DNA from: an uncultured Alphaproteobacteria bacterium | Lineage (GTDB): Bacteria > Pseudomonadota > Alphaproteobacteria > Caulobacterales > Caulobacteraceae | Direction: 5' to 3' | Length of the DNA stretch: 37,954 nt | NCBI GenBank assembly: GCA_903930545.1 | Contig: CAIYZB010000384.1 | Location: 1 to 37,954 of the forward strand | Shown here: positions 9,735 through 25,638 of the stretch, in pieces | Numbering within the stretch: the first letter of the stretch is position 1 | How the letters are laid out: every line of letters starts with the position of its first letter | Position numbers and translations under genes: made by a program | Notes under the pieces: generated by a model | What the model was told of the DNA's origin: nothing | Databases searched by the model: none | The model's input: the letters and a program-made list of their open reading frames with translations, nothing else

Positions 9735-10478
9735 ATGGAGCTTGAGTGCTATCCGACCGCCATGCGGCCGCCAGAGATCGTGCCAGGGCGCCCCGACCGG
9801 GCCTGGATGGACAGCTTCGCCCATCGCCACCCCTATCGCTGCCTGCCTCTGTCCATGGCCAATACCACGGGCTGGGACATCCTCTGTCCCATGGGCTTCA
9901 CCGCCGAATGGAACGGCGGGGTGAACCAGTCGGACATCGTGCTCACGCCAGACTATCCCCATCCAGACTTCCATAATTTCGTGAAGTCCCACTTCAGCCA
10001 CGGGGTCATCACCATGCACCCGGGCTATCTGTTCCGCACAAGCCCAGGCTGGTCGATGATCACCCAGGGCGCTCCCAACCATGTGAAGGACGGAATCCAG
10101 CCCCTGGCCGGCCTCATCGAGACCAGCTGGCTGCCCTTCCCCTTCACCATGAACTGGATCTTCACCCGTCCGGGACGGGTAAGGTTCGAAAAGAACGAAC
10201 CCTTCTGTTTCATCACCCTGGTCCAGGACAAGCCGCTGGAGGCTGTCCAGCCCGTGATCCGGTCCATGGATTCCAACCCGGAACTGCGCGAGCAGTACGA
10301 CCTGTGGGAAAAGCACCGCGCCGAATTCAATGCCAAGATCTGGCGCTCCGACCCCGAGGCCACCAAGGAAGCCTGGCAGCGTTTCTACTTCAAAGGCGAG
10401 TTCCCGGAGCAGGTCGCCGAGGCCCCCGAAGACCACACCAACAAGCGCCGGCTGAAATCCCCACGATTTGGTGGGTGA
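9735..10478 (+). CDS. DUF6065-like protein of unknown function
   Basis: Single long ORF with upstream GAGGAG; sequence MELECYPT...NTTGWDILCPMGF...W...GGV...HFSHGVITMHPGYLFRTSPGW recalls the DUF6065 family. Confidence 0.78.
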   Translation: MELECYPTAMRPPEIVPGRPDRAWMDSFAHRHPYRCLPLSMANTTGWDILCPMGFTAEWNGGVNQSDIVLTPDYPHPDFHNFVKSHFSHGVITMHPGYLFRTSPGWSMITQGAPNHVKDGIQPLAGLIETSWLPFPFTMNWIFTRPGRVRFEKNEPFCFITLVQDKPLEAVQPVIRSMDSNPELREQYDLWEKHRAEFNAKIWRSDPEATKEAWQRFYFKGEFPEQVAEAPEDHTNKRRLKSPRFGG

Positions 10479-10554: not shown

Positions 10555-10629
10555 GCGGGCGTAGCTCAGTGGTAGAGCACAACCTAGCCAAGGTTGGGGT
10601 CGAGAGTTCGAATCTCTTCGCCCGCTCCA
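10555..10629 (+). tRNA. tRNA-Gly (anticodon GCC), CCA encoded; A at position 33
   Basis: Full cloverleaf: GCGGGCG / TA / GCTC-AGTGGTA-GAGC / CAACC-TAGCCAA-GGTTG / GGGTC / GAGAG-TTCGAAT-CTCTT / CGCCCGC-T-CCA. Confidence 0.95.
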
Positions 10630-10679: not shown

Positions 10680-12071
10680 TCAGTCTGTCTGGCTCGCAGT
10701 CGCCTGTGCCCTCAGGGCTTCCCGGCGCACCCTCAGGGCTGCGTGGTCCGGTGCCAGGGCCAGGGCCTGATCATAGGCCTCCAGGGCCTCTGTGGGACGG
10801 TGATCGGCCTCAAGGGCGTGAGCCAGGGCCTGAAGGGTGCGCAGGTCCCTGGCGCCAGCTTCGAGAGCTCTTCCCAGATGGTGGGAGGCTTCCTTGGCCC
10901 GGTCGGATGTCAGGCAGATCAGGCCCAGTTCAGTCCGGGCACCGGCTTGGTTGCCGATCCGCCAGAGTGAGCGTCGAAGGCAGGCTTCGGCCAGTCTGGT
11001 CTGGCCGCGCTTCAGAAAGACCAGGGCTAGCAGGTAGAGGGCGTGGTGATCCTCCGTGAGGTCTGCGCTTCGTGCCAGGTCCTCGGCCAGGCAGCGGGCG
11101 CGGTTCAGGTCACCATCCCGGAAAAGGGCCATGATCTGCCTGTGGACCGGATCGATCGCCGTAGGTCTCAGGGTCACCGACCGAACTTGCCCGGCCGCAA
11201 CGGCCGCGCGGAATCGGCCAACGAAGTCGATCTGCGGCGGCTCCGAGAGCTCCACGGCATGATCGATGGCAAAGGCCTGGAGATCGGGCGGGAACAGGTC
11301 ACGCATGGCCTTGATCATGCCCCGCTCATAGGCCGATGCGCTGGTGGCCTCCGGGTCGGCCGCGGCGTAACGCTCCAGGCCCACCAGCATAAAGTCCTCC
11401 CGGCACAGGCGCAGGGCCTCCTCTCGGGTCAAGCTGGCGAAACGGACGGGGTCCATCAGGCCCGGGCGCATCAGATCCCGGACCCTGGGGTGGACGGGGG
11501 TGTCCGAAATCAGCCTGAACAGATCTTCCCGGTGAAACCTCGGCGGACGGGAGGCGGGGATGTCTATGTCTTCGCGGAGCAGGGTCAGGCCGAACCGCAG
11601 CCGGTGGTCAAAGTAGCGACCACTCTGTTCTGCGGCGAGCTGCGCACAATAGGCCTGCAGGGACTCGGAGATTTCCCCGATTCCGGCCCGCAGGGTCTTC
11701 ACGTCCCCCAGGGTCTTGGAAAAGGCTGTAGGAAGCTGGGCGTGGGATCGCTTGAAAATATACAGAACCTCCAGGGGCGGGACCTTGATCTCGCTACCCA
11801 GGATCCGGGCGGTTTTCGTGCAGAGGTCCGGAAGCTGCCGATAGGACGGGGTTTCTTCCGTATCGAACTCGACGAAATCGAACTCGCTACCCGGCCTCAG
11901 ATCCATCCTGAACCGGTGGTTCTGAACCCACTTCTCCTTGAGGATCAGGTCAGAGTTTTCACGCCGGAACTGTTCGCGCTCGGCCTCGCTGCCGATCAGG
12001 TCCAGGTCCTTGAACCTCGGTCGCATGGTCAGGCCGTTCAGGTGAGCGGCATAGGACCCGATGACGATCAT
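10680..12071 (-). CDS. nucleotidyltransferase-like domain fused to C-terminal TPR region
   Basis: N-terminus MIVIGSYAAHLNGLTMRPRFKDLDLIGS (GS...DxD pattern) and later MDLRPGSEFDFVEFD. C-terminus has TPR repeats (LYLLALVFLKRGQTRLAEACLRRSLWRIGNQAGARTELGLICL..., ALEAYDQALALAPDHAALR). Confidence 0.72.
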   Translation of the reverse strand: MIVIGSYAAHLNGLTMRPRFKDLDLIGSEAEREQFRRENSDLILKEKWVQNHRFRMDLRPGSEFDFVEFDTEETPSYRQLPDLCTKTARILGSEIKVPPLEVLYIFKRSHAQLPTAFSKTLGDVKTLRAGIGEISESLQAYCAQLAAEQSGRYFDHRLRFGLTLLREDIDIPASRPPRFHREDLFRLISDTPVHPRVRDLMRPGLMDPVRFASLTREEALRLCREDFMLVGLERYAAADPEATSASAYERGMIKAMRDLFPPDLQAFAIDHAVELSEPPQIDFVGRFRAAVAAGQVRSVTLRPTAIDPVHRQIMALFRDGDLNRARCLAEDLARSADLTEDHHALYLLALVFLKRGQTRLAEACLRRSLWRIGNQAGARTELGLICLTSDRAKEASHHLGRALEAGARDLRTLQALAHALEADHRPTEALEAYDQALALAPDHAALRVRREALRAQATASQTD

Positions 12072-23888: not shown

Positions 23889-23918
23889 CGGTTCCCACCT
23901 GAGCGCGTAGAGCGCCCC

Positions 23919-23994
23919 ATCCGCAGTGACTGGCGATTTGAAGGTGGGCGACCACCGGGGAGCTGGCGGATCAAGACCGCCGCGCGCCTGGGCA
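23919..23994 (+). promoter_or_regulatory. ZTP (pfl motif) riboswitch upstream of purH
   Basis: ATCCGCAGTGACTGGCG...GCGACCACCGGGGAGCTGGCGGAT...CCGCGCGCCTGGGCA. P1 ATCCGC (23919-23924) pairs with GCGGAT (23966-23971); conserved GTGACTGGCG, CCACCGGGGAGC and CGCCTGGGC elements present. Confidence 0.92.
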
Positions 23995-24024
23995 TTTTCC
24001 TGACTGACTTCAAGGAGAGTGCCT

Positions 24025-25638
24025 GTGCCTGCAGCCCCCGACTTCCCCGCCGCCCCCGATCGCGCCGCCCCCAAACGGGCCCTGATCTCCGTCTCCGACA
24101 AGACCGGCCTGATCGAGGCCGCCCGCACCCTGGCGGGCCTCGGGGTTGAGCTGGTCTCTACAGGGGGAACCCGCAAGGCCATCGCCGATGCCGGACTGCC
24201 GGTGAAGGACATTTCCGACCTCACGGGCTTTCCGGAAATGATGGATGGCCGGGTCAAGACCCTGCATCCGGTGGTCCATGGCGGCCTTCTGGCGGTACGC
24301 GGTGCCCCCGACCATGCCCAGGCCATGGCCGAACACGGGATCGGCGGCATCGATATCGTCTATGTGAACCTCTATCCCTTCGAATCCACCGTGGCCGCTG
24401 GCGGCGACTTCGAGACCTGTGTCGAGAATATCGACATCGGCGGTCCCGCCATGATCCGCTCGGCGGCCAAGAACCACGGCTATGTGGCGGTCTGCACCGA
24501 ACTGGCGGACCTAGAAGAGGTGCTTGCGGAACTCACGGCCAGCGGCACCACGGGCCTGGCCCTGCGCAAGACCCTGGCCGCCCGGGCCTATGCCCGCACG
24601 GCGGCCTATGATGCGGCCATCTCAGCCTGGTTTGCGCTGTCCCTTGAGGATGCCGCCCCGCGCCGCCGGGCCTTTGCCGGCAAGCTGGTCCAGACCATGC
24701 GCTATGGCGAAAACCCCCATCAGGCGGCGGCCTTCTATGCCGACGAGACGCCGCGCACCGGCGTGGCTACGGCCCGCCAGCTCCAGGGCAAGGCTCTGTC
24801 CTACAACAATATTGCCGATACCGACGCGGCCATTGAACTGGTCTCGGAATTCGATCCCGCCGCCAGTGCCGCTGTGGCCATCATCAAACACGCCAATCCC
24901 TGCGGCGTGGCCCTGGGCGATGACCTGAAGAGCGCCTATGAGCGGGCCCTTCAGTGTGACTCGGTCTCGGCCTTTGGCGGGATCGTGGCGGTGAACCGCC
25001 GTCTGGATGCCGCCGCGGCCCGGGAAATCATCAAGATCTTCACCGAGGTGGTGGTGGCCCCCGATGCAGACGAGGACGCCATTGCCCTCTTCGCCAAGAA
25101 GAAGGACCTGCGCCTGCTCCTGACCGGGGGGCTTGCCGATCCCCAGGCACCGGGAGACCTGTTCAAGCAGGTGGCCGGGGGTTTCCTGGTCCAGAGCCGC
25201 GACACGGCCCGGATCACCGCCGCCGATCTGAAGATCGTCACCAAGCGCCAGCCGACGGAAACCGAAGTGCGCGACATGCTCTTTGCCTTCACCGTGGCAA
25301 AGCACGTGAAGTCCAATGCCATTGTCTATGCCCGGGATGGTCAGACGGCCGGCATCGGGGCCGGTCAGATGAACCGCAAGGACTCCGCCCGCATCGCAGC
25401 CATCCGTGCGGGCGAGGCGGCGGAAACCGCTGGGCTGGCCCAGTCCCTCGCCAAGGGCTCGGCCTGCGCCTCAGACGCCTTCTTCCCCTTTGCCGATGGC
25501 CTCATCCAGGCCGCAGAGGCAGGGGCCACGGCCGTTATCCAGCCCGGTGGCTCGATCCGCGATGCCGAGGTCATTGCCGCTGCCGATGAGGCCGGCCTGA
25601 CCATGGCCTTCACCGGCATCCGGGTCTTCCGCCACTAG
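24025..25638 (+). CDS. purH: bifunctional AICAR formyltransferase/IMP cyclohydrolase
   Basis: [36 protein letters not shown]-like [35 protein letters not shown]; ends GIRVFRH. GTG 24025 is well spaced from AAGGAGA; GTG 24019 also in frame. Confidence 0.97.

Follow-up and report, generated by a model that had tools for sequence, protein, structure and literature searches.

A tRNA-Gly(GCC) gene at a conserved locus

The window, by which we mean the whole 37,954-nt stretch of DNA analyzed, contains a single tRNA gene according to ARAGORN, a tRNA-Gly(GCC) at positions 10555-10629 on the plus strand. The same interval and strand match Rfam family RF00005, scoring 62.8 bits where the cut-off is 29, and the gene is no chance match. 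U33 is near-universal among elongator tRNAs. In the assembly, this gene instead carries an A at tRNA position 33 (position 10586, plus strand), within an anticodon arm (10580-10596, plus strand) that reads CAACC TAGCCAA GGTTG. The first-pass annotation, made from the letters alone, had reported A33 in this tRNA, and ARAGORN, the RF00005 match and the loop TAGCCAA all bear it out. It had further described the rest of the tRNA as intact, which holds at the sequence level for the acceptor stem, the T stem, the T arm as a whole and the encoded CCA. The same gene in two relatives scores 71.6 bits against RF00005, and the drop to 62.8 bits in the window gene is due to the one base, A33. A fold prediction for the full-length tRNA with A33 moves to an alternative anticodon arm; the energies are near-equal and modifications are ignored in the calculation, and we gave this result no weight.

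The tRNA gene lies between a DUF6065 gene upstream (9735-10478, plus strand; Pfam PF19541, E=2e-101) and a gene on the opposite strand downstream (10680-12071, minus strand) that has TPR and DUF7275 matches in Pfam. The upstream neighbor is conserved: among 29 loci compared in relatives, a DUF6065 relative precedes tRNA-Gly(GCC) at 26, with tblastn identities of 68-82% in 25 of these loci and 49% in the 26th. Because this synteny is kept in relatives, the window gene can be recognized as the normal ortholog. It is the syntenic, single-copy housekeeping tRNA-Gly(GCC) of Phenylobacterium, and it is probably essential. Compared with the housekeeping gene (RF00005), it has the same cloverleaf, GCC anticodon, discriminator, CCA and genomic position; compared with the common Phenylobacterium sequence, 74 of its 75 bases are identical, the exception being A33 for T33.

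An origin from a phage or plasmid was considered and rejected, the matches there being more distant tRNA-Gly genes. Elsewhere in the window, a ZMP/ZTP riboswitch (23917-24000, plus strand; RF01750, 51.3 bits) is followed just 3′ by a purH-like open reading frame (24019-25638), which is a known arrangement.

Rarity of bases other than T at position 33

We scanned 101 Phenylobacterium genomes with a 75-base pattern containing 66 fixed positions and recovered 100 copies of the gene in 96 genomes, of which 97 match exactly over the fixed positions. The three inexact copies are the window gene (A33), a copy in genome G008 with both G33 and T37, and the second copy of genome G035, which has one acceptor-stem change. 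Position 33 therefore deviates in two copies, those of the window and G008, and is T in the other 98. Dozens of congener copies are identical to one another and one base, A33, apart from the window gene. The GAGAG/CTCTT T stem, which the first-pass annotation had pointed out as unusual, was read correctly from the sequence and proves to be the common type in Phenylobacterium. The G008 ortholog (L088) comes from Phenylobacterium sp. RYN_470, a draft metagenome-assembled genome (MAG) that is 73% complete; its anticodon loop reads TGGCCTA, and the gene is otherwise intact.

At the level of the family, the non-T33 pattern occurs in 2 of 390 genomes, again the source genome of the window and G008, and in a sample of the class it occurs in 1 of 385, the window's own. 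IMG/VR contigs gave no match to the non-T33 pattern, compared to at least 120 stretches with T33. The suggestion that A33 might be a lineage-typical variant is refuted by the family and class counts together with those of the genus, where A33 is found in 1 of 100 copies, and we rejected A33 as a lineage trait.

The non-T33 pattern was also run over 84,980 species genomes, where it returned 12 matches, seven of them chance matches outside any tRNA. The other five are real tRNA-Gly(GCC) genes, distinct from that of the window, in which position 33 is A (two genes), G (two) or C (one); this amounts to a rough rate of five such genes per ~85,000 species genomes, none of them from isolates. All five belong to MAGs, which come from several phyla. 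Three of these MAGs bear the project label RYN (Chitinophagaceae and Phenylobacterium), and a T33 copy is present elsewhere in the same genome in three of the five.

The scatter over phyla, the mixture of replacement bases and the lack of isolates make technical noise likelier than a selected trait, and the appearance of three different replacement bases without clade structure likewise fits noise. We note that the restriction to MAGs and the base mix are suggestive, not decisive. Probably more than half of the genomes in the species set are MAGs, and five MAGs out of five would then be only moderately improbable by chance. Among the RYN genomes, the Chitinophagaceae MAG RYN_281 (G796; L085/L253 and L258) has two tRNA-Gly(GCC) copies, both with T15 and G48 and not the usual R15-Y48, and only one of the two carries G33.

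The source assembly and its other tRNA genes

The source genome of the window (G000) is a 3.1-Mb draft assembly with 443 contigs and a completeness of 95%. The 34 further tRNA genes that it yielded all have T33. Where its tRNAs differ from those of genomes G346 and G021, the differences are mostly paired, loop or variable-position changes and look natural. These two observations argue against general noise in the tRNA genes of the assembly, and the comparison with G346 and G021 led us to reject a high overall error rate.

We found no second tRNA-Gly(GCC) gene in the G000 assembly, with T33 or otherwise. The sole other ACCTTGCCAAGGT in G000 falls in coding sequence that resembles the end of uvrC, with no tRNA there, and was rejected as a hidden T33 copy. 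A tRNA-Gly(UCC) gene is absent from the 95% complete assembly and present in relatives.

In the tRNA-Thr(GGT) gene of the same genome (G000:C442:14980-15054), the anticodon stem contains a mismatch, CATCC/GGCTG, that is common to more than 50 members of the genus and is therefore a lineage trait. At T-stem position 64, the tRNA-Trp gene (G000:C435:3208-3283) carries C and its eight nearest genus matches carry T; C and T alike are unpaired with T50.

Interpretation of A33

We consider it probable that the window holds an ordinary Phenylobacterium tRNA-Gly(GCC) gene whose A33 is a single-base consensus or assembly error in the metagenome assembly, the base itself being most likely wrong. Among the three readings that the first-pass annotation had offered (a divergent isoacceptor, a lineage-typical variant or a base error), the last is the best supported, although short of proof, because every further non-T33 case that we found comes from a MAG. 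MAGs are documented to contain local assembly errors (PMC7111523), and A33 resembles these in being a single unexpected base in a draft assembly from a metagenome. The living cell would then have T33 in this gene and would decode GGC and GGU normally.

Several sources of such an error are plausible. The canonical arm with T33, CAACCTTG-C-CAAGGTTG, forms an inverted repeat of 17 nt, and the location of position 33 inside it may have promoted the error. The arm may also have been affected by lying within a stretch common to many alphaproteobacteria of one community. When the minus strand is read, the base opposite position 33 comes immediately 3′ of GGC, where an Illumina miscall might have arisen. 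Illumina miscalls have been reported following GGC and at inverted repeats, GGC by itself being a poor error predictor (PMC3622629). A point against the error reading is that both events seen in orthologs of the genus (2/2) are at position 33, so that a hot spot fits better than uniform random error. As matters stand, the case mainly shows that a single odd base at an invariant RNA position of a MAG should be checked against reads before any interpretation.

The other 34 tRNA genes of G000, which are clean and all carry T33, speak against an error and in favor of a real, rare point mutation, as does the perfect state of the remainder of the gene. Such a mutation, either fixed in the strain or present as a minor variant, would leave a normal tRNA-Gly(GCC) with no new function, and we regard it as a tentative possibility. 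The A33 tRNA would still decode GGC and GGU, perhaps less efficiently and possibly aided by tRNA-Gly(UCC). Replacements of U33 do occur naturally in other tRNAs: tRNA-ProX has been reported with A33, and a mistranslating tRNA-Ser with G33, which seems to curtail decoding efficiency (PMC11415595). That tRNA-Ser resembles the window gene in lacking U33 while being otherwise functional (PMC11415595); it differs in the replacing base, the isoacceptor and the context, and the window gene is a singleton. tRNA-Gly anticodon arms examined by NMR reportedly lack the classical U-turn in solution (PMC6720975), and the loop may therefore tolerate change.

However, a real mutation would have occurred in a single-copy gene with no T33 partner in the assembly, and no isolate genome with a base other than T33 was found in our scan. 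A weakened tRNA should moreover be costly, because GGC and GGT account for 70% of the glycine codons in eight neighboring genes. If A33 were real, the genome would offer a natural test of the need for the U-turn uridine in an elongator tRNA that is both the only one of its kind and in heavy use. The corresponding stronger claim, that the only tRNA-Gly(GCC) of this organism truly has A33 and decodes GGC and GGU, so that an essential elongator tRNA with one gene copy could do without U33, is in our judgment doubtful.

Mobile elements, both in the genus and in IMG/VR contigs, appear to integrate at the tRNA-Gly gene, and we explored whether A33 could be a scar of recombination, left when an integrative element with an attachment core from the anticodon loop swapped the base on entry or exit. 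Copies of the 3′ half of the gene are found in two Phenylobacterium genomes, G005 (L095) and G026 (L096), and in two IMG/VR contigs (the partial tRNA-Gly 3′ halves in our set are L093 to L096), and their first bases lie at the anticodon loop or shortly before it, where the end of an element would be expected. Yet all of these half copies retain T33, and none with A33 was found in the viral contigs. The window contains no second 3′ half, no integrase adjoins its tRNA gene and the upstream synteny is undisturbed. As neither an A33 attachment site nor an element in the window was found, we rejected a provirus attachment scar, which we hold to be very unlikely.

Hardly credible at all is an isoacceptor in which A33 was selected to tune decoding, to cause mistranslation or to serve a non-translational role, since the acceptor, D arm, T arm, discriminator and anticodon equal those of the genus gene, no T33 partner copy accompanies it and A33 is not conserved in relatives. 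The first-pass proposal that the gene is a divergent isoacceptor, decoding differently or serving some other function, accordingly goes unsupported for a single-copy syntenic ortholog that is otherwise identical to its genus. The precedent in its favor is tRNA-ProX, a group of dual-identity, mistranslating bacterial tRNAs that naturally have A33, whose role there has been called unexplored (PMC11415595). A33 is shared with the window gene, but the dual identity and the A15-A48 pair of tRNA-ProX are not. Whereas tRNA-ProX combines tRNA-Pro identity with a non-proline anticodon, the window gene has the tRNA-Gly body of its genus, a normal anticodon and no mixed identity, and is not a member of this group; in standard tRNA numbering, it has G15 and C48.
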